Made by a program: the position numbers and the translations under genes
In this document: one piece after another, positions 3,472 to 57,309 of the stretch
Position numbering within the stretch: the stretch's first letter is position 1
Layout of the letters: each line of letters opens with the position of its first letter
Assembly (NCBI RefSeq): GCF_002252705.1
Contig: NZ_NQLA01000016.1
Coordinates: forward strand, 1-57,309
DNA from: Vulcanococcus limneticus LL
GTDB taxonomy: Bacteria > Cyanobacteriota > Cyanobacteriia > PCC-6307 > Cyanobiaceae
Direction: 5' to 3'
Length of the DNA: 57,309 nt
The notes under the pieces: model-generated
Database searches by the model: none
Seen by the model: only the letters and a program-made list of their open reading frames with translations
What the model was told of the DNA's origin: nothing

Positions 3472-4902
3472 TTGCCCCAGATCTCCGTGAACCTATCCGC
3501 TCGTCTGGTGGCCCTTGGGGTGAGCGGACCAATCGTGGGGCTGGCCATCTTCCTGGCCATCTCCAGCAGCATGGTGGTCGATCTCTCCCAGAAGGCCAAG
3601 CTGGAGCTCACTGCACTCTTCGAGCAGGACAACCGCACCAACCTGATGCTCACCACGAGCATCATTCAACGGGATGCACGGATTGTCGCCACGCAGTTGC
3701 AACGGGATTCCGAGCACCTGGCCACACAGTTGCGCCAGCGGCTGACACTGGCCAGCCATGGCAACCTGCTCTGGGACGGTCAGCCCCTGGCACCCGATTC
3801 CGCACCAGAACGCCTCAATCCGGTCCTGGGCCTGCCGCTCACGATTCCCAGCGAAACGGCATCGATCTACAGGCGCACGAACCAGGGCCGCTGGCAACGG
3901 CTGGCTGGGATGGACAGCGCCGGCCAGCCGTTGGCGGCCGGGTGGCAACCACCCGCGGCCACCGTGCAGGAGCTGGAGGCCAGGCTGGAGCCGACCAACG
4001 GTGGCCTGGAAGCCCGCAACAGCCTGCTGCTGCGGCATGGGGTCTGGCGGATGGCCCGGCTGACGCCGCTCCTGAAACCGGACAGCGGCCGATCGCAGCA
4101 ACTGATCCTGGCGGTGGGGGTCAGCACGGATGCGGCGAACCGGATTCTGGCCAGGAGCGCCCAGCTGTTCCCGAACAGCACCCATCAGCTGGCCTTCTTC
4201 GAGTTCACGCCACAGGGAAGGATCTTCTGCAGCTTCGCCCAGCCCTCCCGCGCCAGCTGCGACACCCTGCGACGCGCCATGCTCAGCAGCGGAGGCATTC
4301 CCCGGATCACCGACAGCCACCACGACACCCTGAGCGAGCGTGCCCTGCGGCTCCCCCGTCGGCCGGGCTCACCAGCCCGGCAGGAGCAGCTGGTGCTGGC
4401 GAGCTTCCCAGGCTGGAACCGCCTGGCGGTGATCCAGGTGGAGGAATCCCAGCTCAGTCGCACGCTGGCGCCCCTGCGTCAGGCCACGGCACAGATGCTG
4501 CTGCTGCTGCTGGCGGCAACGCTGTTGCTGGTTGCCGGCTGTGCAACCGCCGCCTGGCGGATCGCCGCAGGCATCAGGCAGGAACTGCAGCTGTTGGCAG
4601 CAGCGGCCGACGGCATCGCCGCCGGCCGCTCTCGCACGCAGCTGCACTACGGCGCTGACGATGCCCTGGGCCGGCTGGTCCAGGCGTTCAACCGCATGGC
4701 GGGCGCCGTGGCCGACCGGGAGGATTCACTGCGGGAGCGCATCCGCACCCTGGAGATCGACATCAACGTGCAGACGCTTCAGGGCCAGGTGTGCTCAATT
4801 ACGGGTAACCCCAGCTTTGACGCCCTCACGCAGAGGGCCCGGGAGATGCGGGAGCGGCGCCGCCGGCAGCTGGCCAGGGAGAACCAGCCGGGCATCAGTT
4901 GA
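3472..4902 (+). CDS. Membrane sensor-like protein with HAMP domain
   Basis: 476 residues from a TTG start at 3472; GTG 3487 in the same frame is an alternative. A first membrane segment lies around residues 10-35, a long extracytoplasmic region follows (about 36-335), then a second membrane segment (about 338-362, LLLLLLAATLLLVAGC). A HAMP-type linker comes next (about 363-420, with FNRMAGAVADRED). No kinase, cyclase or methyl-accepting domain follows. The protein instead ends with a tail (LEIDIN, QGQV, NPSFDALTQRAREMRERRRR) nearly matched in the receiver protein at 7482-8588. It is divergent from the ParA-like gene, and its end overlaps the convergent TolC-like gene by 8 bases. It probably senses an external signal and passes it on through the tail. 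Confidence 0.8.
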   Translation: MPQISVNLSARLVALGVSGPIVGLAIFLAISSSMVVDLSQKAKLELTALFEQDNRTNLMLTTSIIQRDARIVATQLQRDSEHLATQLRQRLTLASHGNLLWDGQPLAPDSAPERLNPVLGLPLTIPSETASIYRRTNQGRWQRLAGMDSAGQPLAAGWQPPAATVQELEARLEPTNGGLEARNSLLLRHGVWRMARLTPLLKPDSGRSQQLILAVGVSTDAANRILARSAQLFPNSTHQLAFFEFTPQGRIFCSFAQPSRASCDTLRRAMLSSGGIPRITDSHHDTLSERALRLPRRPGSPARQEQLVLASFPGWNRLAVIQVEESQLSRTLAPLRQATAQMLLLLLAATLLLVAGCATAAWRIAAGIRQELQLLAAAADGIAAGRSRTQLHYGADDALGRLVQAFNRMAGAVADREDSLRERIRTLEIDINVQTLQGQVCSITGNPSFDALTQRAREMRERRRRQLARENQPGIS

Positions 4903-46371: not shown

Positions 46372-46452
46372 GGCCGGCGGCCCGGCGCTGCGGGCCCCCA
46401 GGCAGTGCTGCCTAAGATCCGCGCCACGTCCCGCCCATCAGGCCCCCTTCCG

Positions 46453-47187
46453 ATGCCCCCCGAGCAGCTGCTGGATCCCAGCCAGACCCAGGACGCCAAG
46501 GCGGCGGAGAAGGCCGAGGTGCAGGCCTACTTCAACAGCACCGGCTTTGAGCGCTGGAACCGCATCTACAGCGAGAGCGAGGCGGTGAACCGGGTGCAGC
46601 GCAACATCCGCATCGGCCACCAGAAGACGGTGGACAACGTGCTGGTTTGGCTGCAGGAGCAGGGCGACCTGGCCAACCGCACGTTCTGCGACGCCGGCTG
46701 CGGTGTGGGCAGCCTCAGCCTGCCCCTGGCGCAGGTCGGAGCCGGCCACGTGGACGCCTCCGACCTGTCGGAAGCAATGGTGGCGGAGGCCGGTCGCCGC
46801 GCGACCGAAGCGGGGATCCCCAGCGAGCGACTGCGCTTCACCGCCTCCGACCTGGAGAGCCTGAGCGGCCGCTACGACACGGTCATCTGCCTGGACGTGT
46901 TCATCCACTACCCCCAGGCCCCGGCGGAAGAGATGGTGCGCCATCTGGCCGCCATGGCCGAGCGCCATCTGATCGTGAGCTTCGCGCCCTACACCCCGCT
47001 GCTGGCGCTGCTGAAGGGCATCGGCCAGCTGTTCCCAGGCCCCAGCAAGACCACCCGCGCCTACACGCTGCGGGAGGCGGGGATCGTGGCGGCGGCTGCT
47101 GAGGCGGGCTTCGTGCTCAAGCGCCGCAGCCTCAACCAGGCGCCCTTCTACTTCTCGCGGCTGCTGGCGTTCGAGAAGGCGGCCTGA
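46453..47187 (+). CDS. chlM: Mg-protoporphyrin IX methyltransferase ChlM
   Basis: 244 residues from ATG 46453; upstream codons in frame do not fit the family. It methylates Mg-protoporphyrin IX in chlorophyll synthesis. The SAM motif I is DAGCGVGSLSLPLAQ (80-94), preceded by the ChlM-typical AYFNSTGFERWNRIYS (25-40). DLESLSGRYDTVICLDVFIHYPQ (partly quoted) marks motif II, and LTQ-like NQAPFYFSRLLAFEK ends the protein. The last 84 bases are duplicated downstream at 47869-47952, but this copy is continuous with the gene body and appears intact. Confidence 0.96.
   Translation: MPPEQLLDPSQTQDAKAAEKAEVQAYFNSTGFERWNRIYSESEAVNRVQRNIRIGHQKTVDNVLVWLQEQGDLANRTFCDAGCGVGSLSLPLAQVGAGHVDASDLSEAMVAEAGRRATEAGIPSERLRFTASDLESLSGRYDTVICLDVFIHYPQAPAEEMVRHLAAMAERHLIVSFAPYTPLLALLKGIGQLFPGPSKTTRAYTLREAGIVAAAAEAGFVLKRRSLNQAPFYFSRLLAFEKAA
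47104..47187 (+). repeat. Native copy of the duplicated chlM 3' end
   Basis: These 84 bases encode the last 27 residues of ChlM plus the stop. They recur at 47869-47952 in the same orientation with six mismatches (about 93% identity by eye). This is the pattern left when an element integrates in the 3' end of a gene and regenerates it. Confidence 0.9.
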
Positions 47188-47287
47188 AGGGGGGCCCGCG
47201 GCGGGAGCCATCCATCCGACGCTTGCACCAGCCGGGCCCAGGCGGCGGAGAGGCCCCAGGACAACCGGTGATCAGGCAGCCAGCCAC

Positions 47288-47818
47288 TCAGTCATCCCCA
47301 GTCGCACCTGCAGGTGCCCCTGTCGTCGGCCAGCGCGGGTCGAGGTGAGGATCATCAGATCGCGCCGTGGAAGGGTCGGCGAGGGGCCGGAAGCCATCGA
47401 GATACTCAAAGCGGTCAACAACGTGTCCCTGCATGTAGGGGCGACCAGTGCTGGGGCAGCGGCGGAACTCCCAGGTGTGCTCCAGGCGGGCCTTGAGCAG
47501 TTCGCTCGTGGGGCTGCCCTCCGGCCGATGGCGACAGGTCCATAACATCACTGTCTTCGCAGTTGTAGCAGGACGCTGGACAGAAACCAGGATAGTTGAG
47601 TAGCTATGGAGCTCATCAAAGAACTTGCGTTTAACGATTTGATGCCGCTCAAAGTCGGCGTAGCCGATCCAGGAGGTTTCCCCAAAACGCATGTAGAAGG
47701 CCTCACTGGCGATGATCGGAAGGAACCAGGAGAGACCGGCCTGACGGTCGTGCAAGATTCCCCACTGGAGGATGATGGCGCGGGCCTCATCCTCTGAAAC
47801 GAGATCAATGTTCGGCAC
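47288..47818 (-). CDS. Hypothetical protein between the two chlM-end copies
   Basis: 176 residues. A soluble, mixed sequence: EDEARAIILQWGILHDRQAG, FYMRFGETSWIGYADFERH, VKRKFFDELHSYSTILVS, YMQGHVVDRFEYLDGFRP. There is no membrane segment or recognised motif. The GC content and codon use are clearly lower than in the core genes on the left. The C-terminal 25 residues (Thr/Pro/Asp/Gly) look disordered. It is the only gene between the two chlM-end repeats, so it is likely cargo of the insertion. Start at ATG 47818. Confidence 0.6.
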   Translation of the reverse strand: MPNIDLVSEDEARAIILQWGILHDRQAGLSWFLPIIASEAFYMRFGETSWIGYADFERHQIVKRKFFDELHSYSTILVSVQRPATTAKTVMLWTCRHRPEGSPTSELLKARLEHTWEFRRCPSTGRPYMQGHVVDRFEYLDGFRPLADPSTARSDDPHLDPRWPTTGAPAGATGDD

Positions 47819-47868
47819 TGGAGCAGTGACAGAACGACATGGAGGAACCGTAGCCAGCTGATCCGCTC

Positions 47869-47952
47869 GTGGGCTTCGCGCCCAAGCGCCGCAGCCTCAA
47901 CCAGGCGCCCTTCCACGTCTCGCGGCTGCTGGCGTTCGAGAAGCCGGCCTGA
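47869..47952 (+). repeat. Second copy of the chlM 3' end, att-like
   Basis: 84 bases matching 47104-47187 with six differences, including the in-frame stop at the same place. In frame it would read VGFAPKRRSLNQAPF and end KPA, so several changes alter amino acids. It has no gene body upstream. The serine-hydrolase-like gene on the other strand terminates inside it. Confidence 0.9.
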
Positions 47953-49261
47953 GCCTGACGGGCGGAGGCTCGTCGGGCGCCAGGACAGCGCCGATCTCGC
48001 GGAAGATGGCGTCGGCGCCGTTGCTGTACCCACCGGTCTTGTCAAAGGCTGCCTCGTCAAAGGTCACCGCGACGGCGATCGCGATCTTCTTCGACGGCAG
48101 ATAGGCCATCACCCCGGCCTGCCCGGAGAACAACGGGTTCTGGAGGAGCCACGGGCCCGAGAGCACGATACCGATGCCATAGGTGTAGAAGTCGTCGAGC
48201 GTCGCGCAGGTGACACAGCCCTGGATGGGCTTGCCGAAGCCGCGCAGGGTCGGAGCGATCTGGAGGCGGTGCATCTCGGGCGACACCAAGCGCCCGGTGC
48301 CGATCGCCTCGGCCGACGTCACCATGTCGGCGATGGTCGTGTATTGGATCGCGCCCCGCGTGATCGTCCACGACGGATTCCAGTAGGTCGACTCCTCGTA
48401 GAAGCGCGTGGATGGTGGGATGCCAAGCAGCTGGCGCCGCTCCGACGAGAAGGCGTGAAGCACGGGCTGGGCGATCCTGGGTGTGCCGTCAGGGTCGCGC
48501 GTGTGGCGTAACGGCAGGGGGGCGAAGATCCGCTCCTGCATCAGCTGCGGGATCGTCATGCCCGTGATCTTTTCAAGCGCCAGGCCCAGGAGGATGTAGT
48601 TCGTGTGGGCGTAGTTCCAGCTGGTACCAGGCTCATACCAAAGGGACTGGAGATTCGCATAGGAGAGCAGCTCCTGCGGCGTGAACTGGCGGAAGGGATT
48701 CGCGTAGACGGTCTGCTCGAACGCAGGGTTGCCGATCACGTAGTCGCGGTAGCCGGATGTCATCCGGGCGAGCTGGCCGAGGGTGACGCGATGGGCATTC
48801 GGGATCTCCGGCAGCCAGCGCGAGAGCTTGTCGTCAAGGCTCACCCGCTTCTCATCAACCAGTTGCAACAGCAGCGTGGCGACGTAGGAGATGGCGATGG
48901 CACCATTGCGCACGTGCATGTCACGGGTGGCAGGAACGCCCGTCATCGATTCGCCCAGCGCCTCGGTGACGACATCCTGGCCATCGATCGTGACGCGCAC
49001 GAGCACCGCCCGAAGATGGTCTGAGGCCATCCGGTTGCGCACGATCCGCAGGATCGCGTCGGCCTGGGCCGAGTCCGACACGGTGCCGCCAGGGCTGGCC
49101 AGGGCGGGCGCTGCGGCCAGGCATGCCGCAACTACTGCACCCACAATCAACCTGGAGCGGGAGCCTGGCCGACGCGCCGCAGCTCGTACCTGGGCGAGCA
49201 GGCCACGCGTGGATCGGCAGACCTCCTGCCGCAGCGACCAGCGTGCCTGAACAGGCTCCAT
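47897..49261 (-). CDS. Beta-lactamase-fold protein lacking the catalytic motifs
   Basis: 454 residues from ATG 49261. A signal peptide-like segment (about 36-56, LIVGAVVAACLAAAPALAS) leads to a beta-lactamase/DD-peptidase-like domain (about 65-420): LLLQLVDEKRVSLDDKLSRWLPEIPN, TLGQLARMTSGYRDYV, NYILLGLALEKITGM. Where active relatives have S-x-x-K before the LLQLVDE helix, this protein has A-I-A-I (in VRNGAIAISYVATLL), and the Y-x-N motif is YAH. It may be a non-catalytic binding protein. The last 17 residues are read from the antisense of the chlM-end repeat, so the original C-terminus was replaced. Confidence 0.82.
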   Translation of the reverse strand: MEPVQARWSLRQEVCRSTRGLLAQVRAAARRPGSRSRLIVGAVVAACLAAAPALASPGGTVSDSAQADAILRIVRNRMASDHLRAVLVRVTIDGQDVVTEALGESMTGVPATRDMHVRNGAIAISYVATLLLQLVDEKRVSLDDKLSRWLPEIPNAHRVTLGQLARMTSGYRDYVIGNPAFEQTVYANPFRQFTPQELLSYANLQSLWYEPGTSWNYAHTNYILLGLALEKITGMTIPQLMQERIFAPLPLRHTRDPDGTPRIAQPVLHAFSSERRQLLGIPPSTRFYEESTYWNPSWTITRGAIQYTTIADMVTSAEAIGTGRLVSPEMHRLQIAPTLRGFGKPIQGCVTCATLDDFYTYGIGIVLSGPWLLQNPLFSGQAGVMAYLPSKKIAIAVAVTFDEAAFDKTGGYSNGADAIFREIGAVLAPDEPPPVRLRPASRTPAAARRGRAPG

Positions 49262-51750: not shown

Positions 51751-51985
51751 GCCACTTCCTTAACGCGACAGCGGACTCTTGCTAACCAAGAGTTTGCGAA
51801 GAGTAGGCCATACCCTGAACGATGTCAACATATAGCGCAAGCACCTTGATGCGGCTTGACCATCGATCTGGCCTCCCCATCGCAAAGCCCCCAGTTACAA
51901 ATACAATCGACTGATTCAGGATGGGATCCCTAACCATCAATCACACCCGCCAATGCGTGCGCCAGGAGGTCACTTTCTTGATGAT

Positions 51986-53400: not shown

Positions 53401-53872
53401 CGATCCGCTCCACGGGAACTATGATCGCAATGGCCGATTTAAGATGATCTTAGGATTGATTGGCATGAGGCTGGCAACGAGGCCTGCCATCGGCAATGAG
53501 AGGGCAACGCTGCCATGGGAGCAGCCGCCTCCGTCAAGACAATCTAGGGCATTCCATGGGGCCCAACATTCGCCATCAGCCACGGGAGGTAAGAATGTCC
53601 GCTGCATGGCATTGGTGGGCAGCGGCGCCGCTTGCTCAGTAACCAAGAACGCGTAGATGCATCGCATTGACATCAGCTTGAGCAGCTTCGCCTCGCAGAC
53701 GGACTGCATCTCCATGAACCTCTGGAAGATAACCCCTAGGAACTCAACAACCTTGGCGAACTTGGGGCTATCCAGCCTCCTCCGATGCCTGGCCAACGAT
53801 CACGATCAGCAACGGGAGGTAGCACTCTTCGCATCCCATGCATCATTGGCCCCCGTTCGCTGAATCTTGATG
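53401..53872. other. Stretch without a supported gene
   Basis: About 470 bases between the hydrolase and the methyltransferase. A minus-strand frame (53419-53796, 125 codons) and an opposite-strand frame (53444-53656) overlap. Neither has a recognisable domain, and the minus-strand product is Cys/Pro-rich with a weak hydrophobic end. One of them may be a real small gene or a remnant. Confidence 0.4.
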
Positions 53873-54559
53873 TCAGCTGTCAGCGCATTGAATCCGCAGC
53901 ATTTCGCATGCTCCTCTCTGGAACTCGTAGTCCACCCGCTGAATCGACACCTTGTGTCCAGCTGTACGTAGCAGCTCGACACTCGTTTCAAGATGGGGCG
54001 AGATGGCACCACCAAATGCAAGAAGCGGAAACACCCTGACTTCCCTGGCAACTCGGCATAGCTCAAGCAGCGAAGAATGATGGAACGCCTCGTCCAGCTG
54101 TTGGCTATACAAGAAAAGTAGATGGGAGCAGAGGGCCAAGTCGAAGTGCCTATCAGAGAATGGGAGAGATGGTAGTTCCGAGTTCAAGTACCGTCCCTCA
54201 ACAAGGCCGGCTGGATAGTCATCCAAGAAAGTTTGCATTGCGGCCATGCGGACCTTGCCGAGCTCCTCAACTGATGCGATGGCTTTCCAAACGAATTCGT
54301 TCTGATTCTGCCTGGTCTGATCGATCACGAGCCTATAGGTCGCGGCAATGCGAGCTTCGATATCGGCTCTGCTGAATGCATAGATTGGATCGCACGAAAT
54401 AACCTGAGCGCCTCTTATAGTAGCTTCTGCATTGAAGCCTGCTGGTCCATCCCCACAGCCAAGGATTCGGCCAGCCATATCGGCCCCGGCCAGCGAGAAC
54501 ATGGCCGAGTACTCCTCGAAAGAACGGCCCCAGGGAACAACCTGATCAAGCGCGAACAT
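53873..54559 (-). CDS. SAM-dependent methyltransferase-like protein
   Basis: 228 residues. RILGCGDGPAGFNAEAT (31-47) is a SAM motif I, followed by VISCDPIYAFSRADIEARI with the acidic ribose contact. LPSLPFSDRHFDLALCSHLLFLYS near 130-153 is the motif IV region, and a C-terminal RVDYEFQRGACEMLRI ends the fold. The substrate is unknown; this kind is often filed as a hypothetical class I methyltransferase. ATG 54559. Confidence 0.8.
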   Translation of the reverse strand: MFALDQVVPWGRSFEEYSAMFSLAGADMAGRILGCGDGPAGFNAEATIRGAQVISCDPIYAFSRADIEARIAATYRLVIDQTRQNQNEFVWKAIASVEELGKVRMAAMQTFLDDYPAGLVEGRYLNSELPSLPFSDRHFDLALCSHLLFLYSQQLDEAFHHSSLLELCRVAREVRVFPLLAFGGAISPHLETSVELLRTAGHKVSIQRVDYEFQRGACEMLRIQCADS

Positions 54560-54848: not shown

Positions 54849-55229
54849 TCAGTCGCGAACGTCGGAATGAAAGACCTTGGAGATCACCTGCCAGCGTCCG
54901 TCCACGTGGATGAGCGTCAGCAGATCAATGAAGTCCCTGGGCGGGATCGAGCACTGCAGCCGGGCATGGGCGGTGACCGGTCCGATGAGCTCAATCGACA
55001 GCACGCGGTCGGTGCGCGGCTGGCTGCTGGCCGCAGGTGCAGGGCGCGCGTCGACTACGGGAAAGTACTCGTCCATCCGCAAAACGATGGGCTTGTCAGC
55101 GACCGCTGTGGCATACAGCGCATCCTGATGGAAGACCTGCGCCAGGAGAGTCGTGTCGCTGTGGTACAACCCGTCGAAGTACAACTGCAACACCGAATGG
55201 ATAGCGTCGAACTCGGTGGGGCTGCTCAT
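54849..55229 (-). CDS. NTF2-like (lumazine-binding-type) protein
   Basis: 126 residues. AIHSVLQLYFDGLYHSDTTLLAQVFHQDALYAT at 9-41 (given as a range; key parts LYFDGLYHSD and FHQDA) and the C-terminal FIDLLTLIHVDGRWQVISKVFHSD are typical of the putative lumazine-binding/NTF2-like family in proteobacteria. It probably binds a small ligand. Its start overlaps the stop of the tautomerase gene by 4 bases, so the two are coupled. Confidence 0.85.
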   Translation of the reverse strand: MSSPTEFDAIHSVLQLYFDGLYHSDTTLLAQVFHQDALYATAVADKPIVLRMDEYFPVVDARPAPAASSQPRTDRVLSIELIGPVTAHARLQCSIPPRDFIDLLTLIHVDGRWQVISKVFHSDVRD

Positions 55230-55444
55230 GGGCCGGTCCCCCGCTTGGCGCGCTCGCGCAGAACGGCGACGGTCTCGCCGGCGATGCCCCAGTGATCGGT
55301 CTCGACCTCCTCGATGACCACGAAGGTGGTGGCAGGATCCTTGTCGAGCACCTGCACCAGGAGATCGGTGGCGCCGCGAATGAGCTGGGCCTTCTGATCG
55401 CGTGTCGCGCCTTCGCGCGTGATCTGGATCTTGACGTAGGGCAT
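55226..55444 (-). CDS. 4-oxalocrotonate tautomerase family protein
   Basis: 72 residues. After removal of Met the N-terminal residue would be Pro, the general base of this family (MPYVKIQITREGATRDQKAQ, residues 1-20). Then LIRGATDLLVQVLDKDPATTFVVIEEV, partly quoted, is typical. It acts on small keto-acids; the substrate is unknown. It sits between GST (10 bases) and the NTF2-like gene in one minus-strand operon. Confidence 0.9.
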   Translation of the reverse strand: MPYVKIQITREGATRDQKAQLIRGATDLLVQVLDKDPATTFVVIEEVETDHWGIAGETVAVLRERAKRGTGP

Positions 55445-55454
55445 GGCGAGCTCC

Positions 55455-56075
55455 TCAGGCGATCAGGCCTTCGGCCTTCATCGCGGCCTGCACCGCGGGT
55501 CGGGCCGACACGCGCGCCATGAAGGCGCCGATGTGCTTGAGATCCGATAGATCGATCTGCACAAACTTGGCCCAGCCGAGCACGGTGAAGAGGTAGGCAT
55601 CAGCCGCAGTGAAGGTCTCGCCGGTGAGATAGCTCTTGCCCTCGAGCTGGCCGTCGAGCCAGGCCAGCTTCTTGCGCAGCACAGCGGCCAGCGCCTTCTT
55701 CGCCGTGGCGTCCACGTCGTTCTGGAAGAGGGGGGTGAACGACTTGTGGATCTCGGAGGTGATGTAGTTCTGCCACTCCATCACGCGGTAGCGTGCAAGG
55801 CTGCCGGCTTCCGGCATCAGCGTGTGCGCGTCGGCGCGGTCGGCGATGTACTGCGCGATCACGGGGCCTTCGGACAGGTGGGTGCCGTCGCCGAGTTGGA
55901 TCAGCGGGACCTGCCCCCTGGCGTTGATGGTGTAGTAGTCGACGCCGCCGGCGGTGAGGTGCCTGGCGGTGTCGACCTTCTCAAGGGTGAAGGCCGTGCC
56001 GGTTTCGCGCAGCAGGATGTGCGGGGCGAGCGAGCAGGCGCCCGGCGTGAAGTAGAGCTTGAGAGGGGTGGGCAT
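55455..56075 (-). CDS. Glutathione S-transferase, beta class
   Basis: 206 residues from ATG 56075; upstream codons in the open frame run into the LysR region and are not part of the fold. The N-terminus LYFTPGACSLAPHILLRETG is the beta-class pattern, with Cys14 and Ser15 at the active site. NARGQVPLIQLGDG and LSEGPVIAQYIADRA form the glutathione-binding strand and helix, and the C-terminal all-helical domain includes FTAADAYLFTVLGWAKF. It would detoxify electrophiles with glutathione. Typical proteobacterial sequence, probably acquired. Confidence 0.92.
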   Translation of the reverse strand: MPTPLKLYFTPGACSLAPHILLRETGTAFTLEKVDTARHLTAGGVDYYTINARGQVPLIQLGDGTHLSEGPVIAQYIADRADAHTLMPEAGSLARYRVMEWQNYITSEIHKSFTPLFQNDVDATAKKALAAVLRKKLAWLDGQLEGKSYLTGETFTAADAYLFTVLGWAKFVQIDLSDLKHIGAFMARVSARPAVQAAMKAEGLIA

Positions 56076-56178
56076 CGAAAGAAGTCCTGGCGGAAGTGGA
56101 GCTGCGCCGACTGTATTGGCTACGCGATCGGAAATAAACATGTCATCATTCAATTCACTTATTACATAGAGATCACCA
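56076..56178. promoter_or_regulatory. Divergent GST / LysR control region
   Basis: 103 bases between the two divergent starts. It is AT-richer than either gene, as expected for promoters (for example ttcaattcacttattaca near 56151-56168). LysR regulators usually bind such regions to control both genes, but I could not fix an operator. Confidence 0.45.
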
Positions 56179-57108
56179 ATGAGCCGCCAGTTCCAGGACC
56201 TGCGCCTGGGCAGCATCGAGTTGTTCTGCCTCACCGCGCAGCACTTGAGCTTCACAGCAGCAGCGAAGTCAGCGGGGCTAACGGCGGCCGCCGTTAGCCG
56301 TTCGGTCACGCGGTTGGAGGGGCGCCTAGGGGTACGCCTCTTGATGCGCACCACACGCCAGGTGCGCTTGACCGACGTCGGCCAGCGCTACTACGACCAA
56401 TGCCGCCAGGCGCTTGGACAGTTGAGTGAAGCCGAGCGCGAGGCCACGGGTCAGCAATTGAAGCCCTCAGGGCTGGTGCGCATGAGCCTGCCCACGTCCT
56501 ATGGCCACTACCGCGTGCTGCCTTTGCTGCCGGACTTCGTGCGGCGATATCCAGATATCGAGATCGAGACCCAATTGACCAATCGCAACGTGGACTTCAC
56601 CGATGAAGGCTTCGATCTCGCGGTGCGCGGCCGTGTGCTGCCCGACTCCGGCCTGGTGGCGCGCAAGCTCGAGGACGCGCCCTTGCTGATCGTTGGAGCG
56701 CCCAGCTACCTCAAGCACCATCGTCCGCCGCGCACCGCCGACGACTTGGCACAGCACGAGTGCATCCAGTTCGTGCTGCCCAGTAGCGGCCAGGTGGTGC
56801 CTTGGCTGGTGCAGAGCGAGGGGCACACGATGGAGTTCTCGACGCCGGGTCGGCTGCGCTGCGCCGAAGACATCCTCGCGCCAATCACGCTGGCGCGCGC
56901 CGGAGCGGGTTTGGTGCAGACCTACCGCTTCCTGGTCGAGGACGACCTGCGCGACGGGCGCCTGGTTGAGGTGCTGGCCGATCACGCCGGTGCGTCACGC
57001 CCGTTCTCGCTGCTCTATCCCGGCAACCGCCACATGACACTGCGCGTGCGCACCATGATCAATTTTCTGGTTGACGCCCTCGGCCCTGGGCCGCAACGCT
57101 CGCGTTGA
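56179..57108 (+). CDS. LysR-family regulator of the GST operon
   Basis: 309 residues. The winged helix-turn-helix is at 8-65 (SIELFCLTAQHLSFTAAAKS, TAAAVSRSVTRLEGRLGVRLL), with TTRQVRLTDVGQRYY after it. The effector domain holds VRMSLPTSYGHYRVLPLLPDF, VDFTDEGFDLAVRGRVLPDSG and LPSSGQVVPWLV. This is the CrgA-like/aromatic-type proteobacterial LysR subgroup, quite unlike the cyanobacterial RbcR in this window. Divergent position over the GST, tautomerase and NTF2-like genes makes them its likely targets. ATG 56179. Confidence 0.92.
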   Translation: MSRQFQDLRLGSIELFCLTAQHLSFTAAAKSAGLTAAAVSRSVTRLEGRLGVRLLMRTTRQVRLTDVGQRYYDQCRQALGQLSEAEREATGQQLKPSGLVRMSLPTSYGHYRVLPLLPDFVRRYPDIEIETQLTNRNVDFTDEGFDLAVRGRVLPDSGLVARKLEDAPLLIVGAPSYLKHHRPPRTADDLAQHECIQFVLPSSGQVVPWLVQSEGHTMEFSTPGRLRCAEDILAPITLARAGAGLVQTYRFLVEDDLRDGRLVEVLADHAGASRPFSLLYPGNRHMTLRVRTMINFLVDALGPGPQRSR

Positions 57109-57263: not shown

Positions 57264-57309
57264 TCATGCTGCAACTCCCTGTTGAGCTGCCTCCAGGGGC
57301 GTACGCCCC
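57264..57309 (-). pseudogene. C-terminal end of a transposase/integrase (cut by window edge)
   Basis: On the minus strand the last 14 codons before TGA read GRTPLEAAQQGVAA. A G-R-T-P-x-E-A ending directly follows the H-x-x-L-G motif in integrase-core (rve) transposases of the IS3/IS481 kind. Only this end is inside the window, so the call is weak. It would place an insertion element at the right edge, matching the transposase remnant at the left edge. Confidence 0.5.

Follow-up and report, generated by a model that had tools for sequence, protein, structure and literature searches.

The 57,309-nt stretch analysed here (the window) is one entire contig (C82) of the 160-contig draft genome of Vulcanococcus limneticus LL. 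It carries an intact chlM gene, followed by a variable island that runs to the contig end (Table 1). A repeat search of the window identified an 82-nt same-strand repeat (47106-47187 and 47871-47952; 94% identity, 765 nt from start to start), and both copies end with the TGA stop codon. In an 84-nt version (47104-47187 versus 47869-47952), the copies have six mismatches. Aligned with chlM, the copy 2 82-mer scores 139, and the best of 3,000 random 82-mers drawn from window positions 1-46000 scores 36.

The original prediction had placed the last 84 bases of chlM again 765 bases downstream with six differences and the same stop, had counted one cargo gene between the copies, and had described the genes beyond as lower in GC. 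The repeat search confirms the first of these statements; one ORF of 176 codons, orf176, lies between the copies, and the GC content is 0.73 over 36.0-47.2 kb and 0.60 over 47.2-57.3 kb, with orf176 itself at 0.60. The search for copies outside the window that it had proposed gave none, since a 151-nt chlM-end query matched the two repeat sites alone in the 160-contig assembly.

Table 1. Features of the window around the chlM 3′ end and in the island beyond
Feature	Position	Strand	Evidence
chlM, Mg-protoporphyrin IX methyltransferase, intact	46438-47187	+	TIGR02021, 221 bits (cut-off 158.9); Pfam Mg-por_mtran_C
Repeat copy 1 (84 nt), chlM 3′ end including the stop codon	47104-47187	+	Repeat search and direct comparison
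Variable lower-GC island after chlM, reaching the contig end	47188-57309		GC content; comparison with relatives
orf176, 176 codons, sole sizeable gene between the copies	47288-47818	-	ORF list; no family in Pfam or NCBIfam
Probable left extension of copy 2	47861-47883	+	20 of 23 nt match chlM 46967-46989
Repeat copy 2 (84 nt), decaying chlM 3′ remnant	47869-47952	+	6 differences in 84 nt; 5 in the 82-nt core, all residue-changing
Beta-lactamase-family hydrolase ORF, its end running into antisense copy 2	47897-49261	-	PF00144, 141 bits
Hydrolase-gene tail, the former neighbour of the chlM 3′ end	47953-48105		In GreenBA-s 35 nt after intact chlM
Short degenerate attC-like site	53559-53622	-	Model R1, 17.1 bits, E = 0.0019
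attC-like site, 3′ end of orf228	53789-53880	-	Model R1, 33.3 bits, E = 3e-8
orf228, gene of a probable cassette ending in the attC-like site	53873-54559	-	No Pfam or NCBIfam family

The window contains no tRNA gene, which rules out a tRNA as the insertion target. A scan of 13 island ORFs revealed no integrase, and Rfam gave a single chance-level match. Farther along the island (54849-57108), lumazine-binding-like, tautomerase, glutathione-transferase-like, and LysR genes lie in a row at a GC content of ~0.65, which differs from the lower-GC middle of the island.

Positions 46438-49261 were matched in 23 of 25 genomes from the genus (the window strain counted), with Synechococcus sp. GreenBA-s the nearest (92%). 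There, chlM is followed by 35 nt and then by sequence homologous to the hydrolase-gene tail of the window. GreenBA-s has neither orf176 nor a second chlM end, and a query with 47188-47880 matched nothing in it; 765 bp present in the window strain are absent. The junction seen in GreenBA-s is held in the window strain by copy 2, not by copy 1, and the 35-nt spacer is missing behind copy 2. GreenBA-s retains the tail of the hydrolase gene alone, ending in DEPPPVRRP and a stop. At 47897-48000 of the window, this stop is gone from the hydrolase ORF, whose last codons are read from copy 2 in antisense.

Behind chlM, relatives carry a convergent RluA-type gene and a response regulator. Both are within reach in 54 of the 80 chlM loci taken from named genomes; three loci have an rluA match alone, and 23 have neither, some of these 23 sitting at contig ends. 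The chlM-rluA spacing in the 54 loci ranges from 16 to 7384 bp and its content varies among relatives: The interval is a hotspot of added and swapped DNA. The original prediction took the duplicated chlM end to mark an insertion junction and named, as things to look for, a strain with one chlM end and no insert and strains with other cargo at the same point. GreenBA-s is such an insert-free strain, the variable chlM-rluA content provides the others, and the junction is thereby upheld. In both this genome and GreenBA-s, rluA lies on a contig other than that of chlM. As a separate case within the interval, Synechococcus sp. BO 8801 (locus L126, 7273-7471 and 10753-10946) has a piece of ~200 nt repeated at 79% identity, with its source upstream of chlM and its second copy just behind chlM.

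Copy 2 is decaying. Within the 82-nt core, the two copies differ at five sites, all five nonsynonymous, and at each of them the chlM of GreenBA-s agrees with copy 1; at two further sites copies 1 and 2 agree and GreenBA-s differs. At one of these two sites, both copies have GCG as the alanine codon, present in only one of 72 chlM tails (those readable out of 80), which indicates that copy 2 comes from the window strain's own lineage or a close one. Copy 2 is most similar to copy 1 (93.9%), which in turn is more similar to GreenBA-s (97.6%) than to copy 2. We take this order of identities to reflect rapid change in copy 2, which would explain it, although it lends no positive support to the reading favored below. 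Judging from the 23-nt match at its left edge, copy 2 is probably a chlM remnant that has lost ~130 nt internally. This reading stays at probable because the 52 nt left of 47871 on their own align with chlM no better than chance (19% of shuffles and 57% of random windows are equally good). If the deletion is real, two of the five core differences arose with it, and three stay as substitutions.

The gene between the copies is foreign-looking. Among 300 family genomes, including this one, relatives of orf176 occur at 68%-69% identity in two genomes (G060 and G099) and at 29% in a third (G053). The 3.5 kb around the two close relatives contains no chlM, and none of the 300 genomes emerged as a donor with orf176 immediately after chlM; the donor possibly lies outside this sample. 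For the 103 nt that follow copy 1, the DNA downstream from chlM in the other loci gave no convincing match. Pfam gave one weak, chance-level line for orf176, a search for a viral relative found none, and a single-sequence fold (mean pLDDT 35) was of no use.

We favor the reading, with a probability of roughly 0.58, that copy 2 is the displaced old end of chlM, pushed aside when recombination within the gene brought in the orf176 DNA and the far end joined illegitimately. A fragment carrying orf176 would have entered directly behind chlM, one of its ends recombining homologously within chlM and supplying the present 3′ end (copy 1), the other making an illegitimate join within the former 3′ region of chlM. 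That former end, still next to the hydrolase gene, would then have escaped selection and decayed as copy 2, and the island beyond would have been built partly by an integron whose integrase adjoins rluA. The position of copy 2 at the old neighbour, its decay, the insert-free relative, and the varied chlM remnants in another genus described below fit such an entry; we infer the combination of a homologous and an illegitimate end, the sequence of steps, and the closeness of the donor to the window strain. An old gene end beside its old neighbour with new DNA upstream, the arrangement that marks homology-facilitated illegitimate recombination, is what we find here. Our estimate is lowered because the search turned up no genome in which orf176 follows chlM, although such a donor may lie outside the sample. 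Also against this reading, the missing 35-nt spacer behind copy 2 calls for a further small deletion or insertion.

Homology-facilitated illegitimate recombination has been proposed for displaced 3′ ends in the type VI secretion immunity arrays and Rhs loci of Vibrio cholerae, in the excerpts of that work considered here (PMC5361080). The chlM locus resembles those loci, as excerpted, in that homology anchors one side, new DNA has been put in, and the former 3′ part has moved downstream together with its old neighbour; it differs in that whole immunity genes can be displaced in Vibrio, whereas here the displaced part is the decaying tail of a housekeeping gene and the mechanism is deduced. For hotspots whose content is swapped through recombination in the core genes on either side, the portion of PMC5635113 that we draw on proposes a double homologous exchange. 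The chlM-rluA interval is comparable to them, being a variable interval of changing content between conserved genes. Unlike the present case, a double homologous exchange as outlined in that portion leaves no partial duplicate; the presence of the chlM remnant therefore implies that one end of the exchange was not homologous. The chlM tail belongs with such displaced-end and hotspot systems, which are already known. Its significance lies in showing how a free-living picocyanobacterium can gain genes beside a photosynthesis gene without losing chlM, and chlM remnants are scars by which such insertions can be recognized.

Alternatively, slippage or unequal exchange may have duplicated the chlM 3′ end locally, the orf176 DNA being inserted between the copies later. 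That both copies belong to one lineage (the shared GCG codon; copy 2 nearest to copy 1) agrees with such a duplication, and the insert-free relative fits it equally well. However, it requires two events at one spot, and the remnants beside chlM in another genus also have other DNA between them and the intact gene. We regard a local duplication as possible, with the odds well against it.

Those remnants come from a wider search. When the 80 loci were scanned (628 kb downstream from chlM and 645 kb upstream), one clear remnant emerged, in Synechococcus sp. CS-1330 (counted once, since genome G127 and locus L177 are one strain); the remaining matches are 19-48 nt long and occur on both sides of chlM. 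The CS-1330 remnant begins 2.4 kb downstream from chlM and comprises a 167-nt 3′ end at 98% identity and an inner piece at 78%-79%; it repeats the chlM 3′ end including the stop, and a GIDE-family gene lies between it and the intact chlM. In a direct comparison of the two CS-1330 copies (L177, 7001-7177 versus 4268-4444), the remnant is 96%-98% identical to chlM at the 3′ end and 78% further in, a pattern that suggests recent gene conversion between them. In genome G219, the remnant consists of pieces from almost the entire length of chlM, of which the longest is 82% identical; it ends ~5.2 kb behind the intact gene, with Dak2 and PEP-utilising-enzyme genes between. The G219 remnant is nearest to the chlM of another genus (90%), whereas the intact G219 chlM is nearest to its own genus, so the remnant may itself be an incoming piece. 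Among the 16 genomes of the G219 genus, G162 carries a remnant ahead of its chlM. Downstream from the intact gene, it also has 26 nt of chlM tail, next to the gene found beside the remnant in G219 (the two products share 505 of 547 residues), a second case of a chlM end beside a retained gene.

In a self-comparison of 81 loci, to which G219 was added on account of its remnant, the chlM repeats of G219 and CS-1330 rank first. A 102-nt chlM end matched 165 of 400 family genomes, the other 235 being too diverged or lacking chlM. Twenty-eight genomes besides this one have two matches, the extra ones mostly of 21-55 nt and on other contigs; among these, the extra match of G219 behind chlM is its remnant, and in G313 the two matches are equal and lie on separate contigs. 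G253 and G259 are also among the 28 genomes with an extra match.

CS-1330, G219, and G162 all belong to one genus, and their remnants therefore count as a single other lineage, perhaps with more than one event, and may not be independent. A broader proposal is that the chlM end serves as a recurrent landing pad, where recombination within chlM would repeatedly dock DNA in the chlM-rluA hotspot, remnant repeats would allow emptying and refilling without a dedicated recombinase, and some remnants would be kept alike by gene conversion, as the 98% and 78% identities in CS-1330 could indicate. We put this forward tentatively, as an unlikely extension taken as a whole, its odds being lowered by the single genus of the three strains.

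An integrase using the chlM 3′ end, as the original prediction had it, now appears improbable. Site-specific integration with regeneration of the gene end would leave the 82-nt repeat around a small element, and it accommodates several observations: the end of a gene is directly repeated and retains its stop codon, cargo lies between the copies, an insert-free relative exists, and the CS-1330 remnant likewise includes the stop. Islands placed at a gene 3′ end by tyrosine and serine integrases are also flanked by direct repeats of that end. Unlike in those islands, there is no integrase between the copies here, no fixed core, and copy 2 is decayed. Pfam recognized no integrase in the CS-1330 and G219 intervals either, and the repeats differ in extent between strains, from 82 nt here to 167 nt plus an inner piece and to pieces of nearly the whole gene. 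The suggestion that the integrase might lie elsewhere was right insofar as an integrase gene lies beside rluA on another contig; it is of the integron type, however. An integrase acting on chlM is thus unlikely.

Integron integrases act at attI and attC sites. In this genome and in GreenBA-s, a full-length integron integrase gene adjoins rluA on a contig separate from chlM. The rluA-side integrase scores 460 bits against TIGR02249 (cut-off 265), and its nearest solved protein is IntI4; under the stricter PRK15417 model, the score falls short of the cut-off (334-338 versus 435). Among 30 family IntI loci fetched, these two alone have rluA in their short flanks, and none of the 80 chlM loci has IntI within reach of chlM. 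TIGR02249 is matched above cut-off in 60 of 300 family genomes and 12 of 59 genera, compared with none of 14 control genomes. Some family genomes have two or three matches, and this genome has two IntI genes, on contigs C29 and C68. The integrase beside rluA (L069, 3501-7731, in this genome; L070, 128-2092, in GreenBA-s) is read toward the cassettes, the reverse of the usual integron layout.

Sites resembling attC (AAC, arm, loop, arm, GTT) are present on the rluA/integrase contigs and on the chlM contig of GreenBA-s. We built a covariance model (R1) from nine such sites, the window island being left out of the training. At E ≤ 1 it marks 18 places in this genome and 19 in GreenBA-s, of which two and seven, respectively, are training sites. 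Both attC-like sites of the window island score above the best match in window positions 1-46000 (12.1 bits). The hairpin at 53789-53880 has a folding energy of -17 kcal/mol (z = -2.2), with four of 200 shuffles equally good. The two sites are absent among the listed matches of a coarse whole-genome scan with the model, and a motif scanner missed both; its one weak island candidate (51780-51900, score 24.5) is no better than a candidate from a core control region. In GreenBA-s, chlM thus borders cassette-bearing DNA, and the island of the window strain contains at least one cassette-like unit. An integron integrase gene and attC sites behind genes, the marks of a chromosomal integron, are found in both strains. 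Contig C82 ends at 57309; on C29, IntI is followed by two cassettes and then by GC-rich genes, and the two contigs could not be joined.

The integron could also have caused the chlM duplication by accident, if IntI had joined a cassette to a secondary site close to the end of chlM and taken the chlM tail along with orf176. This genome does have two IntI genes and attC sites, and orf176 is a one-gene, cassette-size insert that points toward chlM, as the surrounding island genes do. Yet 47188-47870 contains no attC-like site at E up to 10, which also speaks against orf176 as an intact cassette, and to our knowledge cassette insertion by an integron integrase does not copy 82 nt of its target; we consider such an accident very improbable. 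An assembly artefact at a short repeat, conceivable in a draft of 160 contigs, is hardly credible, since six mismatches separate the copies, the sequence to the right of copy 2 matches the DNA behind chlM in GreenBA-s, and the insert holds an open gene with relatives at 68%-69%.

The Treponema chromosomal integron also has its integrase read toward the array, according to the sections of PMC3607928 used here, and shares with the present loci a full-length IntI, attC sites, and an integrase pointing at the cassettes. It differs from the present case, in which the host is a picocyanobacterium and the integrase and the window island are on separate contigs. Integrons in Cyanobacteria have already been published (PMC2426708, from the part consulted), and Synechococcus is included in integron-integrase data sets, as seen in portions of PMC3607928 and PMC3108266. 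We found no survey of integrons in picocyanobacteria in the limited collection of literature searched, and specialists may find the occurrence of integron integrases in 60 of 300 genomes of the family more interesting than the chlM case. In this genome, more attC-like matches lie on contigs C76, C54, C9, C53, C14, C49, C31, and C2, and their presence on so many short contigs indicates that the cassette stock is larger than the window shows.
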